Below are positions 35,619 through 48,155 of a stretch of DNA of 64,000 nucleotides, one piece after another. Position 1 is the stretch's first letter; each line of letters starts with the position of its first letter. The DNA lies in contig NZ_CP059066.1 of NCBI RefSeq assembly GCF_017301615.1, forward strand, positions 124,001 to 188,000, given 5' to 3'. This DNA comes from Koleobacter methoxysyntrophicus (lineage in GTDB: Bacteria; Bacillota; Thermosediminibacteria; Koleobacterales; Koleobacteraceae). The notes beneath the pieces were generated by a model. The model was not told where the DNA came from. It was given only the letters and a program-made list of their open reading frames with translations, and did no database searches. The position numbers were made by a program, and so were the translations under genes.

Positions 35619-35645
35619 GAGGATAACCCGAATCAGGTTATCCTC
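35619..35645 (-). terminator. terminator of the amino-acid dehydrogenase operon
   Basis: GAGGATAACC and GGTTATCCTC around CGAATCA; overlaps the last codons of the ferredoxin-like gene. Confidence 0.7.
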
Positions 35646-36142
35646 TTTATCGAAACAACTTCATCAAAATGCCTTTTGTCAAAAACTGCAGAGATTATAG
35701 GGGTTTTATTGTTCCTCTTACTGTTGTTCACCTTGATAACGGTCCCTCTGCAGACCTGTTCTCCCATCCGGTTTACCATTATCACCTCCTGCCCTTCTTC
35801 AGGGAGGGGATAGTATTCATAGGGGAATGATATCACGGCCTCATCATCGGAATAGGTATAATCCTTCACATATATGGCAAGACCGGGGCATACAGCGATA
35901 CACAACCCGCATCCTGCGCATTTATCCGCATGGAGGACCGGCAGATTCGTAATGGGGCTGCCTACTGTAATGGCCCCCTTAGGGCAGGCACTTTCGCAGG
36001 GATTGCAGGGTATTTCTTCGATACATTCAATAAAGGCTATAGGCCCTTTCATATAGTCCTTCTTTCTGGGGAAACCCGGGGTCTGGATCAATTCCTGTAT
36101 ACTGGGACAGCCTGTTTTTTTCAGCATCTTCTCTTTTAACAT
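35633..36142 (-). CDS. [4Fe-4S] ferredoxin-like subunit of an amino/imino-acid dehydrogenase
   Basis: A 169-residue protein. Cluster motifs are CNPCESACPKGAI near residues 46-58 and CAGCGLCIAVCPGLAI near 74-89; the last 70 residues form a non-cluster domain with PLPEEGQEVIMVNRMGEQVC. Its arrangement beside FAD and [2Fe-2S] subunits matches the electron-transfer subunit of clostridial and archaeal proline/hydroxyproline-type dehydrogenases. It overlaps the FAD subunit by seven bases. It would pass electrons to free ferredoxin or quinone-like carriers. Confidence 0.8.
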   Translation of the reverse strand: MLKEKMLKKTGCPSIQELIQTPGFPRKKDYMKGPIAFIECIEEIPCNPCESACPKGAITVGSPITNLPVLHADKCAGCGLCIAVCPGLAIYVKDYTYSDDEAVISFPYEYYPLPEEGQEVIMVNRMGEQVCRGTVIKVNNSKRNNKTPIISAVFDKRHFDEVVSIKRIT

Positions 36143-37245
36143 GCAACTTCCTCCTTGCTGTTTATAAGGGCATCCTTAGCTTTTTTCCTCTTTTCCCCAA
36201 AAGGCCCGCTCCGCAGCGAATCAAGCCGCTCCCAGATCTCCCTGCACTTTTTCTCCCTTTCTTTCGTAGAGTAGTATCCTAAGGCATAGGCCGCATTAAC
36301 ACCAGCCAGTTTCCCTTCTTCCATAGCAGTACTTGCCTCCTCGATCCCTGAAATATCCCCGGCTACATATATTCCTTTAACCGTTGTTTCCATGGTTATA
36401 TCGTGGATGGGGACATGCCCTCCCAGCTGCGGAATAAACTTAAACCGGCATCCGGCTATCCATGCTAGTTCAGATAGGGGGGTAAGGCCTGTCGCAATAC
36501 ATACGGTATCCACATCTAGGTATTTTTCCGACCCCTCTATCGGATTCCAGTTCCTATCCAGTTCCACTATTACGGCACCCTCGACCTTATCGGTCCCAAA
36601 GGCTTCCTTAATAGTATGGGATGTATAGAAGGGGACACCTGCCCTGCGTACCTTTGCAGTATGAACACCATATCCCCCTAACTCCGGTGCCGCTTCTACA
36701 ATAGCGGCCACCTCTGCACCGGCCTGCAGCAGCTGGTATGAGACAATTACCCCTACATTACCGGAACCTATCATTAAAATGCGTTTACCCGGCAGGACCC
36801 TGTTTATATTAATCATCGTCTGGGCGGCGCCTGCCCCCATTACGCCGGGCAGGTCCCAACCCGGGAAATTTATTGAATTCTCTATGGCCCCTGTAGCCAG
36901 TATTATGCATTTGGCCGCCACCTGTTTTGATTCTTTTTTATCCTTCACAGCCCACAGGTTTTTGTTAGAATCTATACCGCAGACTTCGGTATTTAACCAC
37001 ACATCAATGGAGAGCCTCTTCGTCTCTTCCAAAAGCTCTTCCCCTATATCGAAACCCCTTATCCCGGCTTTATGTTCACGGGAACCGAAGAATTTGTGGA
37101 TCTGTTTAAATAACTGGCCTCCCGGCCTTGAGTTTTCATCTATTACCAGTACATCGGCTCCTGCTTTACCTGCTTCGATAGCAGCAGATAATCCTGCTGG
37201 TCCTCCGCCGACTACAACAATAGACCTTTTCTCAACAGAATTCAT
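36136..37245 (-). CDS. FAD/NAD(P)-type alpha subunit of an amino/imino-acid dehydrogenase
   Basis: A 369-residue flavoprotein. VVVGGGPAGLSAAIEAGKAGA near residues 10-30 binds FAD, LMIGSGNVGVIVSYQLLQAGA near 158 is a second dinucleotide fold, and GIYVAGDISGIEEASTAMEEGKLAG is the terminal FAD motif. This is the pattern of opine oxidase A / PDH1 alpha-type subunits, which cooperate with a DAO-family beta subunit. It overlaps both neighbours. No BFD domain is fused; that function is separate at 38479. Confidence 0.85.
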   Translation of the reverse strand: MNSVEKRSIVVVGGGPAGLSAAIEAGKAGADVLVIDENSRPGGQLFKQIHKFFGSREHKAGIRGFDIGEELLEETKRLSIDVWLNTEVCGIDSNKNLWAVKDKKESKQVAAKCIILATGAIENSINFPGWDLPGVMGAGAAQTMININRVLPGKRILMIGSGNVGVIVSYQLLQAGAEVAAIVEAAPELGGYGVHTAKVRRAGVPFYTSHTIKEAFGTDKVEGAVIVELDRNWNPIEGSEKYLDVDTVCIATGLTPLSELAWIAGCRFKFIPQLGGHVPIHDITMETTVKGIYVAGDISGIEEASTAMEEGKLAGVNAAYALGYYSTKEREKKCREIWERLDSLRSGPFGEKRKKAKDALINSKEEVAC

Positions 37246-37561
37246 TTTGTTCCCTCCGTTTCCAGGAGCCCAGCCCTTTTTGTGTTTCTATTACCATTCC
37301 TTCCTCTACGGGTGTTATGCATGTTCTTACATTCGGAATCCCGTTTACGGTCATCACACAGTCGGTGCACCTGCCGATCCCGCAGTAAATACCCCTGGGG
37401 GAATTCTTCTTGGTATATCTGAAAATCCTGCGGCCGGCAGCAAGTAAGGCTGCCGCAATCATTTCCCCTTCATATGCTTCCAGTTCTTCCCCATCTACGA
37501 TGATTTTTACCTTTTTTCTCTCTTCCATTTCTCCAAGAATGATGTGATGTTTCACCCTCAT
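37232..37561 (-). CDS. [2Fe-2S] subunit of an amino/imino-acid dehydrogenase
   Basis: A 109-residue protein with a plant-type [2Fe-2S] pattern GIYCGIGRCTDCVMTVNG plus RTCITPV. It corresponds to the N-terminal SoxA/opine-oxidase domain that occurs as a free subunit here. It overlaps the FAD subunit by 14 bases. The last residue is Cys. The preferred start is ATG at 37561, with GGGAGATGG upstream. Confidence 0.85.
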   Translation of the reverse strand: MRVKHHIILGEMEERKKVKIIVDGEELEAYEGEMIAAALLAAGRRIFRYTKKNSPRGIYCGIGRCTDCVMTVNGIPNVRTCITPVEEGMVIETQKGLGSWKRREQNEFC

Positions 37562-37581: not shown

Positions 37582-38463
37582 TTATTCAATGATTCCTAAT
37601 TCTTTTAAATCATTTTTTAGGACCTCTACAACCTTTTCATCAGCTTCAACCAGAGGCAGCCTCAGACTGCCCGGGTCATAACCCGCTAACCTTAAAGCGG
37701 CTTTTACAGGAATGGGGTTCGCTGTAATGAACAGGTCCCTAAATATCGGCAGAAGCGACAAATGTATCTGTGCTGCCTCATCAACCCTTCCGGCCAGGTA
37801 GGAATCTATCATTTCCCTCATCTTCCTCCCCACAACGTGAGAGGCTACACTAACAACTCCGTAACACCCGATAGACAGCATTGGAAGGGTAAGGCTGTCA
37901 TCCCCGCTGTACACCTTAAAATCCCTGTCAACGCCCCTCAGGACCCTGCCTGCCTGGTCAAGGTCTCCTCCCGCTTCCTTCAGGGCTATTATATTGCTGA
38001 TTTTAGATAAGCGAATAACCGTTTCAAAAGCCATATTAGCTCCCGTCCTGCCCGGTACATTATAAAGCATTACCGGCAGATTGACATTTTCTGCAATCGC
38101 CTTAAAGTGCCGGTAAATCCCTTCCTGGTTCGGTTTGTTGTAATAGGGCACTACAGCCATAATCCCATCAACACCGCACTCCATCACCCGTTTGCTCAGC
38201 TTTATCGTCTTTTCGGTAGAATTGGTTCCTACGCCTGCAATTATCGGTACATCAACCTTCTCCTTTAAAACTTTAAAAAGCTCCAGCTTCTCCTCATCGG
38301 TAAGGGTTGGAGCCTCTCCTGTAGTTCCCCCGACCACCAGGGCAGTGCTGCCCTCTTTAACCAAATACCTTGCAATTTCAACTGCCTTGTCATAGTCCAC
38401 CTTCAAGTTTTCATCAAAAGGTGTAACCATTGCTGTTATTAATCTGCCCCATTCAACCATCAA
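37582..38463 (-). CDS. dapA: 4-hydroxy-tetrahydrodipicolinate synthase family lyase (DapA)
   Basis: A 293-residue class I aldolase. It has GGTTGEAPTLTDEEK, the catalytic Tyr and loop PYYNKPNQEG near 133, YNVPGRTG with the substrate Arg near 138-141, and the Schiff-base Lys in IALKEAGGD near 163. Those residues fit true dihydrodipicolinate synthase. The operon, however, is catabolic, where DapA-fold enzymes such as the pyrroline-hydroxycarboxylate deaminase of hydroxyproline breakdown occur. So the exact reaction is open between lysine synthesis and amino-acid catabolism. Confidence 0.82.
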   Translation of the reverse strand: MMVEWGRLITAMVTPFDENLKVDYDKAVEIARYLVKEGSTALVVGGTTGEAPTLTDEEKLELFKVLKEKVDVPIIAGVGTNSTEKTIKLSKRVMECGVDGIMAVVPYYNKPNQEGIYRHFKAIAENVNLPVMLYNVPGRTGANMAFETVIRLSKISNIIALKEAGGDLDQAGRVLRGVDRDFKVYSGDDSLTLPMLSIGCYGVVSVASHVVGRKMREMIDSYLAGRVDEAAQIHLSLLPIFRDLFITANPIPVKAALRLAGYDPGSLRLPLVEADEKVVEVLKNDLKELGIIE

Positions 38464-38478
38464 AACTCCTCCTTTCCT

Positions 38479-38742
38479 TTATTTTTCAAACACCTTGATT
38501 TGAACTGGCCTTACAGGGCTTCTATAATTTGAAGGTAAAACCTCTTCGGGTTTTTTACCTGTTTTTTCGCATATTATTCTTTCCACATTCTTCCTGCAGA
38601 TCTTCCCCTGACACAAACCCATACCGGCTCTGGTCCAGCGCTTGACTTCATTGGCAGTGGTAGCTCCTTCTTCAATAGCCTTTTCTATTTCAGCCCTTTT
38701 AATCTCTTCACAGCGGCAGACAATAACCTCTAATTTATTCAT
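38479..38742 (-). CDS. BFD-like [2Fe-2S] subunit
   Basis: An 87-residue protein with the four Cys of the bacterioferritin-associated ferredoxin fold: Cys9 and Cys11 in VCRCEE, Cys44 and Cys49 in GLCQGKIC. In related oxidases this domain is fused to the NAD/FAD subunit; here it is separate, as in the four-subunit archaeal L-proline dehydrogenase. Gaps of 15 and 13 bases to its neighbours show co-transcription. Confidence 0.85.
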   Translation of the reverse strand: MNKLEVIVCRCEEIKRAEIEKAIEEGATTANEVKRWTRAGMGLCQGKICRKNVERIICEKTGKKPEEVLPSNYRSPVRPVQIKVFEK

Positions 38743-38755
38743 TTTATCCCTCTTT

Positions 38756-39490
38756 TCATGTTTTTTTCCTCTGATATTGTTCCCAGTATTTTTTCACATC
38801 ACTTACAAGATTTTCAATATGAAGGATCATGCACTTTTCCGCCTCAACAGCATCTCCTTTTTTCAGTGCTTCGTATATCCTTTTATGAGAAACCATATAG
38901 GGTGCCCCTACCGTTTCCCTGATAAATTCAAATATCTCTGACTGCTGACCTGACATGGAAATAATGTGGTATAGGTTCTCCAGCACCCTGTTGCCTGATG
39001 CCCTGGCAATGGTTTTATGGAAATCCAGGTCATTGTTTGTTATGCTCCTGTGCAGGCTGTAATTCCTTTCCTGTTCCTTTAAAATCTCTTCCAGCCTTTT
39101 AATCTCTTCAACGGTTATGTTTTTTGCAGCCAGGCGGGCTGTAGCCCCTTCTATTGCCTTCCGTGCTTCAAGGACCATAAGGTATTCTTCAAGGACCTGT
39201 GAATTTATGAATTTCATCAGTTCATTCCTGTGGAAATCTATCTTCTGGATCTTCTTAATATTTGCTATTGCCTCCTGCCCTTTTTTTGTAATTACCCGGC
39301 CCTTGAACTTTTTCTTCTCAAGAAAACCCAGTTTTTCCAGTCTGTTTAACATCCTTCCTGCAGTAGCAGAACTGACAGAAATCCCCACTTCGGCCAGTTT
39401 GTCGGCTATTGCCCAGGAACCTATGGGTTCTTCCGAATCCCTTATCATTTTCAAGATCACAAGTTCTTTTTCATCTACTATATTCTTCAT
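38756..39490 (-). CDS. GntR-like/FCD-domain transcriptional regulator
   Basis: About 244 residues. The N-terminal winged helix (PIGSWAIADKLAEVGISVSS and RMLNRLEKLGFLEKKK) is of the NrpR/HTH type rather than classical GntR. Residues 95-235 are an FCD ligand domain with DLDFHKTIARASGNRVLE and SHKRIYEALKKGD, whose Asp and His residues bind a metal and a carboxylic acid. It probably controls the surrounding operon through the palindromes at 42320 and 42531. ATG at 39490 follows GGAG at nine bases. Confidence 0.82.
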   Translation of the reverse strand: MKNIVDEKELVILKMIRDSEEPIGSWAIADKLAEVGISVSSATAGRMLNRLEKLGFLEKKKFKGRVITKKGQEAIANIKKIQKIDFHRNELMKFINSQVLEEYLMVLEARKAIEGATARLAAKNITVEEIKRLEEILKEQERNYSLHRSITNNDLDFHKTIARASGNRVLENLYHIISMSGQQSEIFEFIRETVGAPYMVSHKRIYEALKKGDAVEAEKCMILHIENLVSDVKKYWEQYQRKKT

Positions 39491-39515
39491 TCGAACACAC
39501 TCCAAAACAGATATT

Positions 39516-39594: not shown

Positions 39595-41037
39595 CTATGC
39601 CTCAGCATTATCAGTTATTACCTGATTTTTAGTCAAATTAGATACTATTACAATCAGTACGGCCGATATAACCAGAGCAATAAGCACCCTGTTTGGCCCT
39701 AAGGCATTTACCTGTGTCAGAATAGAACCGGCTATCAGACCTACCCTTGCACCCCACGGGGTTATATTGCTGTTCTTCTTGCCCATCTTGAAATCTTCAT
39801 CCGGCTTCTTTTTCCATAAAAGGCCGACCAAGAGCAGGGGCACCAGACCTCCGCCTGCCATAGCATAGGCCTTAGAAAACAGACCGATAATCGAGCTTGC
39901 ATAAATGGCAGCAAGAGCTGCAAATATACCCAGAATTACCGTAAAAATTGTGGCATATTGGACCAGTTCCTTATCTGTAGCATTGGGCTTAAAGGGTTTT
40001 ATCAGGTCATTGACCACAAGGATAGCAGCAGAGTTAAGGTTGGAATCGGCCGATGACATACCGGCTGCCAGTATGAGCGCAAAAATCATTGCAGAAATCC
40101 CTGCCGGAACATAATTCATCATAAACCAAGGCATTGCATCATCGGGTTTTAGGTCTTGATTCATAGTCAGTATAACAAGACCTACAAGGGCTGTAAGTAT
40201 TACCATGACTATTGCAATTATTCCGCTCCACAAAAGACCGTTCCTCGCTGTCCGGGAGTCTTTAGCAGCGAAACACCTCTGCCAGTAAATCTGTGCAGCC
40301 AAAATACCTACACATCCTGTTACAAATTTAGTGATAAGGCTCATCGCCGGAATTCCGGATAAGGTCCAGAGTTCTGCCTTGCCGACTGCAGCCAACCGTT
40401 CGCCGAGGACCGCAAAACTCCAGTTAACAGGTGAAAAGGCATAAATGTAAAATATGGTCCCGAAGATTACTACCAGCACACCTTGAAGCAGGTCGGTCCA
40501 GACAACTGAATAGATGCCGCCCAGAGTAGTGTAGAGTATAAAAACGGCAGAAAAAAGCAGTATAATGGGAATGGGGTCGGCACCCGTAACGATATTGAAT
40601 ATATTGCCGAAGGCCTTCCCCTGACCGCCTACCCATGCGATCATTATTAAGGAAGCCAATAAACCTGCAATGGCTCTTGTAATTTTGTCTTTAACGAACA
40701 GGTCGTCTATCATCTCTGCTATGGTATTGTAAGTAAAACGACCGGCAAGACCGGCAAAGAACAGGGCGAAAATGATCTTCGAGCCCTGCTCACCCAGTAT
40801 AAATGCAAGGTGAGGCAGTCCTATCTGGTATCCTTTACCTGCATGCCCGATAAAGTTGCCGACACCCATTATAGTGGCAAACTGCGTGAAGAAAATCAGA
40901 TATAGAGGAAAGGAACCGCCGCCTATCGCATAGCTGCTGAAACTGGATGTGGCATCACCCCTGACCTTCCAGGAAATATAGAGGAAGGCACCGCACATTA
41001 TTATGGTAATTAACCAAAGTAATGACCCTAGATCCAT
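39595..41037 (-). CDS. sodium:solute symporter (SSS/PutP-like)
   Basis: A 480-residue protein with about thirteen hydrophobic segments. SSFSSYAIGGGSFPLYLIFF, FIGHAGKGYQIG, GGIYSVVWTDLLQGVLVV and AAGMSSADSNLNSAAILVVNDL are typical of SSS carriers; the last is the sodium-site helix 8 region. Context with an amino- or imino-acid dehydrogenase suggests proline, hydroxyproline or a similar substrate. Confidence 0.9.
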   Translation of the reverse strand: MDLGSLLWLITIIMCGAFLYISWKVRGDATSSFSSYAIGGGSFPLYLIFFTQFATIMGVGNFIGHAGKGYQIGLPHLAFILGEQGSKIIFALFFAGLAGRFTYNTIAEMIDDLFVKDKITRAIAGLLASLIMIAWVGGQGKAFGNIFNIVTGADPIPIILLFSAVFILYTTLGGIYSVVWTDLLQGVLVVIFGTIFYIYAFSPVNWSFAVLGERLAAVGKAELWTLSGIPAMSLITKFVTGCVGILAAQIYWQRCFAAKDSRTARNGLLWSGIIAIVMVILTALVGLVILTMNQDLKPDDAMPWFMMNYVPAGISAMIFALILAAGMSSADSNLNSAAILVVNDLIKPFKPNATDKELVQYATIFTVILGIFAALAAIYASSIIGLFSKAYAMAGGGLVPLLLVGLLWKKKPDEDFKMGKKNSNITPWGARVGLIAGSILTQVNALGPNRVLIALVISAVLIVIVSNLTKNQVITDNAEA

Positions 41038-41115: not shown

Positions 41116-42297
41116 TTAATCACTCCCTTCCTTTTGAAATCGGTCAGGGCTCAGTTCTTCCAGATTAAAGGGCGGTTTGTCACCGCATATGAGCCCTGAT
41201 ACTATCTTGCCTGTAATCGGTGCAAGGGCTATGCCGTCCCCCTCATGGCCTGCTGCTATGAAAAACCCTTTTCTGCCAGCTGCTTCTCCGATTATCGGTT
41301 TGCCGTCAGGGGTAGCGGGTCTCAGGCCTGCAAATGTCCTGATGATGTTAACATTTTTTAATATCGGGAAAAATTTCAATGCCTGGGATACTATAGTTTT
41401 TATACACCTGTAATCAGTGGATGTGTCAAAACCTGCAAACTCCCGGCTCCCTCCAATAAAATAATTGCCGTCCATAGTCCTGGCAAAGGAGAGGCCTATG
41501 CCCAGTTCTTTCAGAACTTCGTCCCTATTCCCCGCAGAATTCGGGTCCAACTTTGCCACTATATACCCTGCATCCCATATATTGGTTTCTCCCAGGGAGG
41601 GGATCTGTTCAGTAACGGCTATCTGACCCTTTTTGGGCTTTATAGGAATTTCAACATCGATCAGCTTCGCAACCTGGGGAGCCCATGCACCGGCTGCATT
41701 AACTATAAATTCAGAGCAGTATCTGCTTTTATCCTCAAGTTCTATTTCCCATTTATCCCCTTTTTTTTCAATAGAACTCATTGAAAAACCCTTTATAATC
41801 TCAAGGCCGTTTTCTCTACCCTTTTTTAGAAACCCTTTCATAACCTTTAAAGGATTTACCTGGGAATCGATAGGGCTGTAGGTAGATGCCACAATATTTC
41901 CGGATGCAAAAGGCTGTTTCTTGTAAATATCATTCCCTTCAATAATCTGCACATCGAGGCCATAGGATTTCTGCTTTTTTACGAAATCCTCCATAAATTT
42001 TAACTGCTCCCGGTCCTCGATAAGTATCATACCGCCCCTGTTTTGAAATTCAAGGTCAATGCCCAGTTTTTCAGACAGGGTTTTATATAACTCAAGGCTT
42101 TCAAGGGCCATTTCAAGTAGCAAACCAGGTTTTTTGGACTGCATTAAGATCATTTCATCACATGAGCTTGATGCGCCGGCTCCTATTTCATTTTTCTCTA
42201 TCAATAAAACCCTTTTCTGTTTTTCAGTAAGATGATAGGATACTGACAGTCCTATAATACCTCCACCGATAACAATTACATCATATCGATTCTCCAA
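41116..42297 (-). CDS. DAO-family FAD subunit (beta) of an amino/imino-acid dehydrogenase
   Basis: A 393-residue flavoenzyme. VIVIGGGIIGLSVSYHLTEKQ near residues 7-27 binds FAD, VNAAGAWAPQVAKL is the second motif, and RTFAGLRPATPDGKPIIGEA with HEGDGIALAPITGK is the C-terminal active-site region. This is the D-amino-acid oxidase/sarcosine oxidase/proline dehydrogenase beta fold. It is the first gene of the operon and the likely site of substrate oxidation, electrons passing on to the 36-38 kb subunits. Substrate candidates are D-hydroxyproline, L-proline or another N-alkyl amino acid. Confidence 0.87.
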   Translation of the reverse strand: MENRYDVIVIGGGIIGLSVSYHLTEKQKRVLLIEKNEIGAGASSSCDEMILMQSKKPGLLLEMALESLELYKTLSEKLGIDLEFQNRGGMILIEDREQLKFMEDFVKKQKSYGLDVQIIEGNDIYKKQPFASGNIVASTYSPIDSQVNPLKVMKGFLKKGRENGLEIIKGFSMSSIEKKGDKWEIELEDKSRYCSEFIVNAAGAWAPQVAKLIDVEIPIKPKKGQIAVTEQIPSLGETNIWDAGYIVAKLDPNSAGNRDEVLKELGIGLSFARTMDGNYFIGGSREFAGFDTSTDYRCIKTIVSQALKFFPILKNVNIIRTFAGLRPATPDGKPIIGEAAGRKGFFIAAGHEGDGIALAPITGKIVSGLICGDKPPFNLEELSPDRFQKEGSD

Positions 42298-42319: not shown

Positions 42320-42340
42320 GCTAATCATTTTGTGAGTAGC
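42320..42340. promoter_or_regulatory. operator of the dehydrogenase operon
   Basis: GCTAATCA-N5-TGAGTAGC, starting about seven bases after the predicted transcription start. Same 8-5-8 element as 42531-42551. Confidence 0.75.
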
Positions 42341-42353
42341 TTTATTTTTATTT

Positions 42354-42383
42354 AATATAACACTTAATCAAATAACTTGTCAA
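42354..42383 (-). promoter_or_regulatory. promoter of the dehydrogenase operon
   Basis: Minus strand TTGACA, an 18-base spacer and TATATT, upstream of the FAD beta gene. Confidence 0.75.
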
Positions 42384-42488
42384 TACGGTTTTTAATTTTC
42401 TGAATTGGATTAAATCTGGATTCTTTAATTTTTCTTTGTTTTTTAAAAAAATTCTACACTTGTTAAATTATATTCTGAAGATTAACTG

Positions 42489-42517
42489 TTGACTCATTAT
42501 TTAAATTGTTTTATAAT
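42489..42517 (+). promoter_or_regulatory. promoter of the aldehyde ferredoxin oxidoreductase gene
   Basis: TTGACT, a 17-base spacer and TATAAT. Confidence 0.8.
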
Positions 42518-42530
42518 AAAAATATAAATT

Positions 42531-42551
42531 GCTAATCATTTGATGAGTAGC
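42531..42551. promoter_or_regulatory. operator of the aldehyde oxidoreductase gene
   Basis: GCTAATCA-N5-TGAGTAGC, again starting about seven bases after the predicted start site. Confidence 0.75.
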
Positions 42552-42576: not shown

Positions 42577-44292
42577 ATGCCTGATAGAGATAGGAATTTC
42601 TTCCTCTATGTAAATATGGATAAATGCGAGATAGAAATAAGTAAACCCCCTGAAAAGTATTCGTCACTTGGGGGCAGGGCCTTAATTTCAAGCTTTATTC
42701 TGGATAATGTTGATCCCATATGTTCTCCATTAGGAAGGTTTAACAAATTAATTATCGCACCCGGCCTTCTTTCCCATTCTTCTATACCCTGTACCGGAAG
42801 GCTTTCAATAGGTGCAAAGAGCCCGTTAACCGGCACGATTAAGGAAAGCAATGTGGGAGGAACCGCATCAAAGGATATCTGCAGGTTGGGATACAGGGCC
42901 ATAGTCATAGAAGGCAGGCCTGAAAGCGACAAATTGTACGTTCTTGTAATAACCCCCGATAATGTAAAACTCGTTGAAAAGCCGGAACTCAAAGGGAAAG
43001 GTAATTATGAAACCGTTAAGATCTTAAAGGATGAATTCGGCAAAAGGGTTTCGGTATTATCCATAGGGCCTGCGGGTGAAATGGGAATGGCAGCAGCCGG
43101 AATAGCCGTCACAAATATTGAGGGAATGCCTTCACGTTTTGCGGGTCGCGGCGGGCTTGGAGCCGTTATGGGGTCAAAAGGAATAAAGGCCATAGTAATT
43201 GACCCTAAAAATCTGCAGCTGCCGAAACCTGTCAACAGCGAAAAGTATAAAGAACTGCTTAAAGATTATGTCTCTAGATTTAAAGAAAACCCTGTCACAT
43301 CAACGGTCCTTCCCACTTACGGAACGGCAAATATAGTAAGTATAACTCAGGAACTGGGAGCAATCCCTACAAGAAACTTCAGTGAAGGTAGATTTGAAGC
43401 TGCGGATTTAATTAACGGTTATGCCCTAAAAAGGCTTACAGATGAAAGGGGAGGTAAAACGGGCCATCCCTGTTACCCCGGCTGTATTATTAAGTGTTCA
43501 AATATCTACAATGACCCAAACGGCGGCTACCTTACATCTGGCCTTGAATATGAAACTATAGTTCTCCTGGGATCTAACTGCGGAATAGGTGACCTCGACA
43601 CCATCGCAAAGCTGGACAGGCTGTGTGATGATTATGGAATCGATACTATAGAGACCGGTGCTGCTGTAGGGGTTGCCATGGAAGCCGGGGTCTTGAATTT
43701 CGGTGATGGAGAAGGGACAATAGATTTGGTACATCAGATAGGTAGGGGTACAACCCTCGGCCGTATCCTCGGCCAGGGTGCAGGGGTTACAGGAAAGGTT
43801 TTCAATGTCTATAGGACACCCGTAGTAAAAAATCAAAGCCTTGCAGCCTATGACCCCAGGGCTTTAAAGGGCGGGGGAGTAACTTATGCAACGACCCCTA
43901 TGGGAGCAGACCATACTAACGGAAATGGATTAGGCGGAAACTCCGACCCCTTAAGACCTGAAGGACAGATAGAATATTCTAGATACTTCCAGATCGCTGC
44001 TGCATATATAGATTCCTTGGGATTATGCTGGTTTACGAGGGGGCCCCTGCTGGGTAATCTCGAGCTTCTGGCCGAGATATCTAATTCATATCTGGGATTA
44101 AATCTAACAAAGGACAGTTTCGAAATGCTCGGGAAACAGGTGATTTCCACCGAAAAAGAGTTTAATCAAAGGGCAGGATTCAATTCCAGCCATGACAGGT
44201 TGCCTGAATTCTTTAAACTGGAGCCTTTAAAACCCCATAATGTCGTATTCGATGTCCCTGACGAAGAACTTGATAATGTCCATAATTGGTGA
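42577..44292 (+). CDS. aor: aldehyde ferredoxin oxidoreductase (tungsten type)
   Basis: A 571-residue protein of the AOR family. SRFAGRGGLGAVMGSKGIKA binds the bis-pterin tungsten cofactor and phosphate, HPCYPGCIIKCSN plus the late Cys in LGLCWFTRG supply the [4Fe-4S] ligands, and GSNCGIGDLDTIAKLDRLCDD belongs to the second AOR domain (motifs shown in part). It oxidises aldehydes to acids with ferredoxin as acceptor. The shared operator with the dehydrogenase operon suggests that the aldehyde comes from amino-acid breakdown. Slightly shorter than the usual 600 residues. Confidence 0.92.
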   Translation: MPDRDRNFFLYVNMDKCEIEISKPPEKYSSLGGRALISSFILDNVDPICSPLGRFNKLIIAPGLLSHSSIPCTGRLSIGAKSPLTGTIKESNVGGTASKDICRLGYRAIVIEGRPESDKLYVLVITPDNVKLVEKPELKGKGNYETVKILKDEFGKRVSVLSIGPAGEMGMAAAGIAVTNIEGMPSRFAGRGGLGAVMGSKGIKAIVIDPKNLQLPKPVNSEKYKELLKDYVSRFKENPVTSTVLPTYGTANIVSITQELGAIPTRNFSEGRFEAADLINGYALKRLTDERGGKTGHPCYPGCIIKCSNIYNDPNGGYLTSGLEYETIVLLGSNCGIGDLDTIAKLDRLCDDYGIDTIETGAAVGVAMEAGVLNFGDGEGTIDLVHQIGRGTTLGRILGQGAGVTGKVFNVYRTPVVKNQSLAAYDPRALKGGGVTYATTPMGADHTNGNGLGGNSDPLRPEGQIEYSRYFQIAAAYIDSLGLCWFTRGPLLGNLELLAEISNSYLGLNLTKDSFEMLGKQVISTEKEFNQRAGFNSSHDRLPEFFKLEPLKPHNVVFDVPDEELDNVHNW

Positions 44293-45693: not shown

Positions 45694-46785
45694 ATGAATA
45701 AAAAAATTAAAGTTGCCATTGCAGGGGTTGGTAACTGTGCAAGTGCTCTTGTGCAGGGAATTGAGTTTTACCGCAAAAGGCCGGAAGCAGCCGGATTAAT
45801 GCATCGCGAAATCGGCGGCTATAGGCCTGAGGATATTGAAGTCGTTGCTGCATTTGACATCGATCGCCGGAAAGTAGGAAAAAAACTAAAAGAGGCGATA
45901 TTGAGCAAACCAAATTGTACAACCCTATTTGTTAAAGACCTGCCAGATTACCCTGTTGTAGTGCAAATGGGGCCTGTTTTGGATGGAGTATCTGATCATG
46001 TCCGTGATTATGATGATGACGTCAGTTTTTCTGTAGCCGATGTTGAACCCTGTGATGTCGTTGATGTCCTGCGGACAAGCGGAGCTGATATATTGATCAA
46101 CTACCTGCCGGTTGGGAGCGAGAAAGGTGCCCGCTTCTACGCTGAGGCCTGTTTAAAAGCAAAAGTCGGATTTATTAATGCGATGCCTACCTTCATCGTC
46201 TCTGACCCGGAATGGAGCAAAAGGTTTGAAGCCGAAAACATCCCCGCTATCGGTGATGACATAAAAAGCCAGCTAGGTGCTACTATCGTCCATCGTGTTC
46301 TAACCGATTTGTTTGAAAAAAGAGGGGTAAAACTTACGAAAACCTATCAGCTTAATTTTGGAGGGAATACGGATTTTTTGAACATGCTTAACAGCAGCCG
46401 CCTGACCTCCAAGAAAAAATCAAAAACAAATGCAGTTCAATCCCAGTTAAATGTACCGTTGCCGCCCGATAAAATTCATATCGGTCCCAGTGATTATGTT
46501 CCCTGGCTGAAAGACAATAAAATTTGTTATATCTTTATGGAAGGCCTGGGCTTCGGAGAGGTTCCTCTCACTATTGAAGTTAAACTATCTGTGGAAGATT
46601 CCCCAAATAGCGCAGGGGTGATTATTGACGCCATTCGATGCTTAAAAGTCGCCCAAGATAGGGGAATCGGTGGTCCGCTTACATCTGTCGCTTCCTTTAC
46701 CATGAAATCACCACCCCAGCAGTACACAGACAGTGCAGCATGCAAATACGTGGAAGAGTTTATTGCCGGAAAGAGGGAACGCTGA
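45694..46785 (+). CDS. ino1: inositol-3-phosphate synthase (myo-inositol-1-phosphate synthase)
   Basis: A 363-residue enzyme of the short bacterial/archaeal type. VAIAGVGNCASALVQGIEFY near residues 7-26 is the NAD-binding loop; DILINYLPVGSEKGARFYAE, AIGDDIKSQLGATIVHR and NFGGNTDFLNML are core catalytic regions. It isomerises glucose-6-phosphate to inositol-phosphate with bound NAD. AAAGGAG precedes ATG. Its stop overlaps the start of the bifunctional gene by one base (TGATG), so the two are coupled. Confidence 0.93.
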   Translation: MNKKIKVAIAGVGNCASALVQGIEFYRKRPEAAGLMHREIGGYRPEDIEVVAAFDIDRRKVGKKLKEAILSKPNCTTLFVKDLPDYPVVVQMGPVLDGVSDHVRDYDDDVSFSVADVEPCDVVDVLRTSGADILINYLPVGSEKGARFYAEACLKAKVGFINAMPTFIVSDPEWSKRFEAENIPAIGDDIKSQLGATIVHRVLTDLFEKRGVKLTKTYQLNFGGNTDFLNMLNSSRLTSKKKSKTNAVQSQLNVPLPPDKIHIGPSDYVPWLKDNKICYIFMEGLGFGEVPLTIEVKLSVEDSPNSAGVIIDAIRCLKVAQDRGIGGPLTSVASFTMKSPPQQYTDSAACKYVEEFIAGKRER

Positions 46786-48155
46786 TGAAGGCCGTAGTTG
46801 TTGCAGCAGGGGAAGGCAGCAGGATGCGGATGACTGCCGGAAAGGAGCCCTTCCCAAAACCTCTCCTTCCCCTTCTCGGCCTAAGAATTATTGAAAGGGT
46901 TTTTCTTGCCGCTCGAAAGGCCGGAATTAAAGAATTTGTGGTTGTAATCGGTTATCGGGGCGATGAAATTCGCCGATATCTGGGAGATGGGTCAAAATGG
47001 GGCCTTAAAATTCAGTATGCCTTTAATGAACACTGGCTAAATGGTAACGGCTATTCCCTTTTAGCAGCAAAACCGTACTTAGAATCTGAAAATCGGTTTC
47101 TTTTATTGATGGCCGACCACATTTTTGAGCCGAATCTGCTTAAACATTTTTTACAGTTTACCGACGACGAAATTAAAAAAGTCCAAAGTGATAAAAACCT
47201 TCACTTTTTAGCGGTCGATGCCTGCCCTGAAAAGGTGACTGACTTAGAAGAGGCTACAAAGGTTTATACCCGTGCGGGAAAAATTATCGCCCTGGGAAAA
47301 GAAATAAAAGACTTTAATGGTGTAGACTGCGGCATCTTCAACTTCGGGGCCGGCATTTTTGAAACAGTAGAAAAATCTTTAAAGGATAGTGGAGGCAGCC
47401 TGAGTGAAGCCTTACAGCTCGTAGTGAAAACTGGAAACCTGAGGCCTTTTGAATTCAAAAATTATTACTGGCATGATATTGATCAGAAAAAAGACCTGCA
47501 GCAGGCAAGACAGAAACTCCTGCAGCACCTGTTACCCAAAAAAGACGGAATAGTTTCCCGCTATTTTAACCGCCCAATTTCTCTAACCATAACTTCTGTG
47601 CTGGCAAATCTTTCTGCCACGCCCAACATTATATCTTTTTTCAGTTTTTCCCTCTGTCTGTTGGGAGGAGTATTGTTTGCATTGGGATACCCTTTGGCCG
47701 GCGGTTTGTTGGCACAGCTGGCTTCCATTATAGATGGGGTTGACGGGGAAATTGCCCGTTTAAAGTTTCAGGAAAGCCTGTTCGGTGCATATCTTGATTC
47801 AATCCTTGACCGTTATGGAGATGCTGCCCTTATCGGGGGGCTTACAGCCGGAAGTTTGTTAGGAGGAGCCTCTTCTCCGTCTTTTGTTCTTATAATGGGA
47901 TTCTTAGCCTTAACAGCTTCTCCGCTTTCAATGCTGGCTAAAGAAAAGTATGCAAACCTAACGGGAAAAACGTATAATCCTTTAGAACTTGACGGTTATT
48001 TGCGCTATTTCCCTTTTAATCGCGATGGCAGGCTGGCACTAATAATGCTGGGAGGCGTGTTTAACCAGCTTACAGCCACTCTCTTACTGCTGGCTTTGTT
48101 AACCAATTTGCAGGCAATATACCGTTTATTCGTAGTCCGGCAAAACCTGGGGTAG
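46785..48155 (+). CDS. bifunctional IPCT/DIPPS (CTP:inositol-1-P cytidylyltransferase and DIP-phosphate synthase)
   Basis: A 456-residue two-domain protein. Residues 1-235 are a nucleotidyltransferase (VVVAAGEGSRMRM, PKPLLPLLG, LLMADHIFEP). From about 265 a membrane CDP-alcohol phosphotransferase follows, with D-x2-DG-x2-AR-x8-G-x3-D-x3-D read as DGVDGEIARLK and FGAYLDSILD. This fusion makes CDP-inositol and joins it to inositol-1-phosphate, giving phospho-di-myo-inositol phosphate, a solute of (hyper)thermophiles. ATG at 46785 follows GAGGG; the frame beginning at 46740 would overlap ino1. Alternative: a phosphatidylinositol-type enzyme. Confidence 0.88.
   Translation: MKAVVVAAGEGSRMRMTAGKEPFPKPLLPLLGLRIIERVFLAARKAGIKEFVVVIGYRGDEIRRYLGDGSKWGLKIQYAFNEHWLNGNGYSLLAAKPYLESENRFLLLMADHIFEPNLLKHFLQFTDDEIKKVQSDKNLHFLAVDACPEKVTDLEEATKVYTRAGKIIALGKEIKDFNGVDCGIFNFGAGIFETVEKSLKDSGGSLSEALQLVVKTGNLRPFEFKNYYWHDIDQKKDLQQARQKLLQHLLPKKDGIVSRYFNRPISLTITSVLANLSATPNIISFFSFSLCLLGGVLFALGYPLAGGLLAQLASIIDGVDGEIARLKFQESLFGAYLDSILDRYGDAALIGGLTAGSLLGGASSPSFVLIMGFLALTASPLSMLAKEKYANLTGKTYNPLELDGYLRYFPFNRDGRLALIMLGGVFNQLTATLLLLALLTNLQAIYRLFVVRQNLG

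Follow-up and report, generated by a model that had tools for sequence, protein, structure and literature searches.

The 64,000-nucleotide stretch of the Koleobacter methoxysyntrophicus genome analysed here (the window; its genome is G000) contains two divergent units, an operon around an amino-acid dehydrogenase and a gene for an aldehyde:ferredoxin oxidoreductase (AOR), and between them the same interrupted palindrome occurs twice. This arrangement raises the questions which protein reads the palindromes and which pathway it controls through them.

Twin sites at two divergent promoters

The genes of the left unit are arranged in the order DAO-SSF-regulator-BFD-dapA-Fer2_4-Pyr_redox-Fer4, and the right unit consists of aor (Table 1). 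The sequence GCTAATCA-N5-TGAGTAGC is present twice between them, as sites O1 and O2, whose arms are identical at 16 of 16 bases. Twin 8-5-8 sites at equal offsets from two near-consensus promoters, about seven bases past each start, had been predicted originally, and this was confirmed: the coordinates are right, both promoters match at 11 of 12 bases, the gap between the -10 box and the site is 13 nt in both cases, and with the start taken 6 or 7 bases past the -10 box both sites span approximately +7 to +27. Since the promoter scan by itself performed no better than shuffles (three promoters found, 2.5 expected), it is the position of the promoters relative to the sites that carries weight. 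On the DNA, O1 and O2 are direct repeats at divergent promoters and thus lie in opposite orientation along their own transcripts, which is of little importance as the motif is near-palindromic.

Table 1. Features of the two units and of the region between them (positions in the window).
Feature	Position	Strand	Basis or remark
4Fe-4S ferredoxin-like subunit	35633..36142	-	Pfam
Pyr_redox_2 FAD/NAD subunit of dehydrogenase complex	36136..37245	-	Pfam
Fer2_4 [2Fe-2S] subunit of dehydrogenase complex	37232..37561	-	Pfam
DapA (4-hydroxy-tetrahydrodipicolinate synthase)	37582..38463	-	TIGR00674 346 bits, cut-off 206
BFD-like [2Fe-2S] protein of dehydrogenase complex	38479..38742	-	ORF; name from reading its sequence
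Regulator, HTH_12 winged helix + FCD effector domain	38756..39505, likely start 39490	-	Pfam
Sodium:solute symporter (SSF), presumed substrate importer	39595..41037	-	Pfam
FAD-dependent amino-acid dehydrogenase, DAO family, first operon gene	41116..42297	-	Pfam DAO 231.7 bits
Operator O1 (putative), GCTAATCATTTTGTGAGTAGC	42320..42340		Directly downstream of the amino-acid dehydrogenase (DAO) operon promoter
DAO operon promoter	42354..42383	-	TTGACA-18-TATATT, 11/12
aor promoter	42489..42517	+	TTGACT-17-TATAAT, 11/12
Operator O2 (putative), GCTAATCATTTGATGAGTAGC	42531..42551		Directly downstream of the aor promoter
Aldehyde:ferredoxin oxidoreductase (AOR)	42577..44292	+	AFOR_N + AFOR_C

With up to three mismatches allowed, the 64-kb window held matches at the places of O1 and O2 alone (four with both strands counted); for shuffled windows 0.37 matches are expected, and four were reached in none of 100. 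The genome search which had been named beforehand as a check yielded no further exact copy in 3.1 Mb: O1 and O2 are the sole exact copies of the 21-mer, and neither the strict nor the loose motif returned a convincing further site in this genome, the weaker matches staying at the background level of the reversed pattern.

The regulator and the distribution of its putative operators

Pfam profiles assigned an HTH_12 domain (35.7 bits, cut-off 21.4) and a C-terminal FCD effector domain (87.5 bits, cut-off 24.3) to the regulator of the operon, and a GntR winged helix was not found with the six Pfam families tested. A GntR/FadR-type label for the protein was consequently corrected: by its sequence, the HTH_12 domain is an RNase R-type winged helix and the protein is not a GntR protein. 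The putative metal ligands D154, H158, H202 and H224 are invariant among eight aligned relatives, and this Asp and the three His have the same spacing as D138, H142, H186 and H208 of HypR in the accessible part of its description (PMC6608401). A structure model built from seven sequences (mean pLDDT 79.5, pTM 0.56) resembles the PdhR and DhdR C-terminal domains, with a TM of about 0.8 of the target.

In a sample of 61 genomes of relatives, the palindromic motif with at most one mismatch was found in 11. Exact matches beyond the window's genome were limited to two genomes of the same order, G003 and G002, where they lie on the same contig as a close orthologue of the regulator (67 and 58% identical) and ahead of the orthologous operon. 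In both, the counterpart of O1 has been conserved ahead of the DAO orthologue. G003 also has a site in front of an AOR gene that differs from the one in the window, and so has an Atribacteria MAG, there with two mismatches. The eight other genomes are counted by one-mismatch motif matches alone. Near-motif matches in G040 and G036 form three and nine identical copies, several of them close to contig ends, and are probably repeat elements unrelated to the regulator.

Further relatives of the regulator (38-64% identity) came from MAGs of Atribacteria, Peptococcaceae, another Clostridia lineage and Synergistaceae and from the order of G380. The resulting regulon set of 13 loci, each with a regulator relative (38-67% identical), holds 15 exact GCTnnTCA-N5-TGAnnAGC sites, compared with a mean of 0.01 in 100 Markov simulations; these loci are not all independent, as G380 and G424 belong to one genus, G409 and G410 to another one and G424 supplies two of the 13, and one of them, L184, is a paralogue with different neighbours. 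An exact site is present in 10 of the 13 loci, and L066, L180 and L184 have sites with two, one and two mismatches, respectively; at the DAO gene of L066 no site was found. Duplicates (L065, equal to G003; L038, equal to G002; L178 and L179, overlapping L068 and L069) and L071, an FCD-only match, were left out of all counts, the duplicates being recognised by the length and content of their contigs. The available sequence is limited by an N run near the regulator start of L066, the 3-kb contig of L070 and the contig end at which L069 stops.

Fifty control loci (751,618 bases) contained no site at up to one mismatch. Eighteen of them carry sister HTH_12-FCD regulators, and the other 32 are stretches around homologous DAO genes where the window's regulator had no detected relative. 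As the regulon loci were retrieved via the regulator, the co-occurrence of regulator and site is partly built in, which the controls offset in part. The recognition helix GRxLN[KR]LE is present in all 13 regulators of the site-bearing set and, judged by eye, in none of 23 readable sister proteins. Upstream of the sister loci (28 searched, 23 usable, with L015, L016, L022, L024 and L028 read on the wrong side), the search for a shared dyad returned A/T runs and one weak dyad (ATTTC-N3, five loci). We consider it very improbable that a regulator other than the FCD protein occupies the sites. Such a protein could be accommodated in so far as the loci were retrieved through the FCD gene and FCD binding is a deduction, but the site tracks the recognition helix, the 18 sister loci lack it and none is found in the 32 DAO stretches, which include the second DAO operons of G000, G002 and G380.

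The composition of the motif bears on the nature of the reader. Across the 13 loci, an arm spacing of 5 gave 15 sites, a spacing of 8 two and a spacing of 2 one, and the remaining spacings from 0 to 14 gave none. Base 5 of the half-site, which the search pattern leaves free, is A in 14 and C in 16 of the 30 half-sites and never G or T; base 9 is T in 23 of 30, and base 4 takes all four letters. Near-palindromic sites within the transcribed leader, close to +7, might also act as RNA hairpins of the 5' leaders and not as DNA operators. This is highly improbable, however, because the arms do not co-vary: of the 15 exact sites, ten have a mismatch between the arms at base 5 and six have one at base 4, plus one G-U, and both bases are paired in just two. 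Arms which are often unpaired, together with half-sites constrained separately (A or C at base 5), argue for a protein reading DNA.

Thirteen of the 20 distinct sites (15 exact, five degenerate) lie 7-14 nt past a promoter of at least 9/12, as do 49 of 3000 random positions, the better direction being counted wherever both were tried; the other seven sites have no good promoter at the right distance. Judged from sequence, this placement is where a repressor would sit. Twin sites between divergent units recur, with the window and G003 (DAO/AOR) being joined by G413 (DAO/BFD-dapA) and L069 (dapA/SSF), where one of the two sites carries a mismatch. DNA looping between the twin operators was considered and is not argued here, since their distances (211 bp in the window, 197 bp in G003, 227 bp in G413 and 323 bp in L069) share no helical phase.

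O1 and O2 are very probably operators of the HTH_12-FCD regulator that the operon itself encodes. The comparison shows the site, where it lies, that it goes with this subtype of regulator and that AOR is paired with it repeatedly. The proposal that one FCD regulator serves both units and couples amino-acid with aldehyde oxidation thus gained comparative support, and its binding is what we infer. A dimer of the regulator would set one winged helix on each GCTnMTCA half-site, covering approximately +7 to +27 in either transcript, and would block transcription, presumably as a repressor and not as an activator, so that the dehydrogenase operon, including the regulator's own gene, and aor would be switched off together. 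An effector bound at the FCD metal site would release the regulator from DNA; induction would presumably be by substrate or product.

Which pathway is placed under the sites

The lysine pathway connects aspartate and meso-diaminopimelate via aspartate semialdehyde, HTPA and tetrahydrodipicolinate. We tentatively propose that the regulon serves the catabolism of meso-diaminopimelate by reversal of this route. The DAO complex would deaminate meso-diaminopimelate, presumably at its D-centre, to tetrahydrodipicolinate, which DapB and DapA would convert to pyruvate and aspartate semialdehyde. The semialdehyde would then be oxidised to aspartate, either by a tungsten AOR with formation of reduced ferredoxin or, elsewhere, by Asd and an aspartokinase with degenerate feedback part, yielding ATP. 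Reversal of DapA needs thermodynamic driving.

Within the regulon set, dapA was detected in seven of 13 loci, asd together with an aspartokinase gene in three (G410, G409, G413) and dapB in three (G380, G424, G419); the absence of asd, aspartokinase and dapB genes in the window, L037, L066 and L067 was read from ORF lists. The window has dapA and AOR, and dapB is located elsewhere in its genome. Taken together, the regulons supply the DAO complex, DapB, DapA and either AOR or Asd with aspartokinase, but in different genomes, and no single fetched locus with every step was found. Among the seven loci with either AOR or Asd plus aspartokinase, none showed both (partly from ORF lists). Nine of 13 loci encode a similar sodium symporter (79-81% identical to that of the window in G003, G002 and the Atribacteria MAG), and in G419, downstream of a site, dapB and the symporter gene are separated by one for a peptide-binding protein. 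The BFD-like ORF likewise has counterparts in other operons.

Among solved structures, the DAO protein matches 1y56_B best (deposited as sarcosine oxidase), followed by glycine oxidases and dimethylglycine dehydrogenases, and the best NCBIfam for the Pyr_redox_2 subunit is sarcosine oxidase alpha, far under its cut-off. The complex resembles the multi-subunit DAO dehydrogenases of the 1y56 kind, which we take to be L-proline dehydrogenase, in its DAO, FAD/NAD and Fe-S subunits; it differs in its predicted substrate, diaminopimelate, in an extra ferredoxin-like subunit and in DapA. An in-frame TAG in two DAO homologues proved to be the terminal stop, and no tRNA was found in those stretches.

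The DapA of the window carries the motifs GTTGE, PYYN and YNVPGR, the first and last of which are kept in 10 of 10 operon DapAs. They are absent from the DapA-family proteins of the racemase-linked loci L162 and L163, from the L166 protein and from the second DapA-family copy of G000. We assume that the Arg of YNVPGR marks true DapA. The NCBIfam name alone would not settle the function, since the hydroxyproline deaminase of Streptomyces coelicolor is likewise listed under TIGR00674 in the accessible part of the source (PMC6608401).

Proline or hydroxyproline as the substrate, suggested in the original prediction, was not supported by these results. In such a pathway AOR would oxidise alpha-ketoglutarate semialdehyde. 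The dehydrogenase complex does share its subunit types with the D-hydroxyproline dehydrogenase in the HypR regulon, as far as the excerpted source describes it (PMC6608401), and the racemase-linked DAO operon of L162 does contain an AOR, 33% identical to the G003 type. Yet no proline-racemase-family epimerase was detected among the nine scanned operon proteins, the operon DapAs have the signature that L162, L163 and L166 lack, and asd, aspartokinase and dapB have no role in hydroxyproline breakdown, which makes this pathway improbable for the operators. Elsewhere, G000 encodes two proline racemase matches, of which that at 2,089,021 is full-length and that at 1,209,136 partial. The former (594 bits, cut-off 556) is part of an operon in G000:2084000-2096000 (L102, 4995-11406) which also has a further complement of 2Fe-2S, FAD/NAD, ferredoxin, BFD and DAO subunits, 25-52% identical, and a gene read as that of a transporter; this operon is the likelier proline or hydroxyproline unit of G000.

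The same operators and regulator could also govern a biosynthetic regulon, in which AOR or Asd and aspartokinase supply aspartate semialdehyde and the DAO complex acts as reductive aminase, so that meso-diaminopimelate or lysine is made from aspartate. DapA, DapB, Asd and aspartokinase are lysine-pathway enzymes, of the two DapA-family genes of G000 the operon copy alone bears the complete signature, and reductive amination is, as generally known, thermodynamically easy. We nevertheless regard synthesis as unlikely, in view of the sodium symporter in nine of 13 loci, of a second strong DapA which makes the operon copy an extra one in G002, G410 and G413, and of a feedback part of the aspartokinases that may be degenerate. 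The second DapA was found in these three of the six covered regulon genomes with operon dapA and not in G000, G003 and G417, counts which rest mainly on bit scores; in the latter three the operon DapA may thus serve biosynthesis too, which is a point against breakdown. For the aspartokinase of L068, the best profile covers residues 1-269 only (positions 1-276 of 405) and a lower-ranking one reaches residue 337, and two more operon aspartokinases match AA_kinase alone in Pfam. The feedback part, presumably ACT domains, may therefore be degenerate, the profiles having been run on the operon aspartokinases alone. Importer, second strong DapA and a feedback part that is hard to recognise favour meso-diaminopimelate breakdown as the direction.

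The AOR genes provide a further link. A site precedes AOR in three regulon members (the window, G003 and L066), and in G002 AOR closes the operon. The AOR of the window is 29-30% identical to those of G003, L066 and G002, which form one group (65-79%). Inside the DAO operons of G103 and G134 there are AORs 58% identical to that of the window, and the DAO operon of G014 has one 63% identical to the G003 type, so that AOR of either lineage occurs in three of 32 DAO stretches. That AOR has been brought more than once into operons of this type speaks for a functional connection. A search of the literature on AOR regulation returned nothing fitting. L162 and L166 contain DAO operons with a divergent DapA-like gene and an AOR at 33-36% identity, together with the racemase in L162, whereas none was seen in L166; in some anaerobic pathways of this sort, AOR may take the place of the NAD-dependent semialdehyde dehydrogenase.

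Relation to known systems

HypR of Streptomyces coelicolor is described, in the accessible part of its report, as a GntR protein that acts as repressor, binds CTNTGC(A/C)ATGTCAC and governs a racemase-containing operon for hydroxyproline (PMC6608401). The two systems share an FCD-type regulator of an operon for DAO, Fer2_4 and Pyr_redox/BFD subunits and a DapA-family enzyme; they differ in that the window's operon has no racemase among its scanned proteins and that part of the report names no AOR for the HypR system (PMC6608401). Operators of the FadR subfamily are given, in the excerpt consulted, as palindromic TKGT/ACMA in which GT and AC are 2-3 nt apart, divergent double sites being covered as well (PMC4494728). 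Palindromic operators and divergent double sites are common to both, whereas the window's regulon has GCTnMTCA-N5-TGAKnAGC and an HTH_12 DNA-binding domain. The TKGT/ACMA core is not matched by the 15 exact sites with their half-site GCTnMTCA.

The FadR subfamily of the GntR superfamily has an FCD-type effector domain, as has the window's regulator, and autoregulating repressors with twin operators at divergent promoters are a well-known kind. No described member of the HTH_12-FCD architecture, with such an 8-5-8 motif or otherwise, was found in the literature searched, which left most subscription papers outside, and the same search yielded no described catabolic route for diaminopimelate; one review describes biosynthesis only, in the part accessible. 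Asd, aspartokinase, DapA and DapB are shared between the related regulons and diaminopimelate biosynthesis, with the direction proposed to be reversed here; unlike in biosynthesis, an importer, an amino-acid dehydrogenase complex and AOR stand under one putative operator. It is conceivable, and we put it forward with reserve, that several anaerobic lineages ferment meso-diaminopimelate from peptidoglycan by an undescribed route under the control of a novel type of HTH_12-FCD regulator with an 8-5-8 operator of its own. The operator offers a one-assay handle on the HTH_12-FCD architecture, and through its regulon a specific substrate can be predicted for an AOR. Should the pathway prove right, it would explain how anaerobes could feed on diaminopimelate, a cell-wall amino acid, and would represent a case of a biosynthetic route turned round for energy.

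Three minor observations concern neighbouring systems. In L184 (9240-12921), the paralogous regulator with the same recognition helix is accompanied by the perfect palindrome ACTACTCACTAGATGAGTAGT and adjoins a dicarboxylate symporter and an altronate/galactarate-type dehydratase, neighbours by which the subfamily may govern another pathway too. In L142, L143 and L148-L151, a PAS-domain sigma-54 activator is encoded near DAO-dapA-SSF or DAO-AOR-SSF operons without FCD regulator (called by Pfam in L142 and L150, by likeness in L143, L148, L149 and L151); that of L150 has an extra N-terminal homoserine-dehydrogenase-like NAD-binding domain, perhaps a sensor. In the window itself, at 45694-48155, an inositol-phosphate synthase-like gene overlaps one for a fusion of nucleotidyltransferase and CDP-alcohol phosphatidyltransferase (both named by reading), and the pair perhaps belongs to an inositol-lipid pathway.
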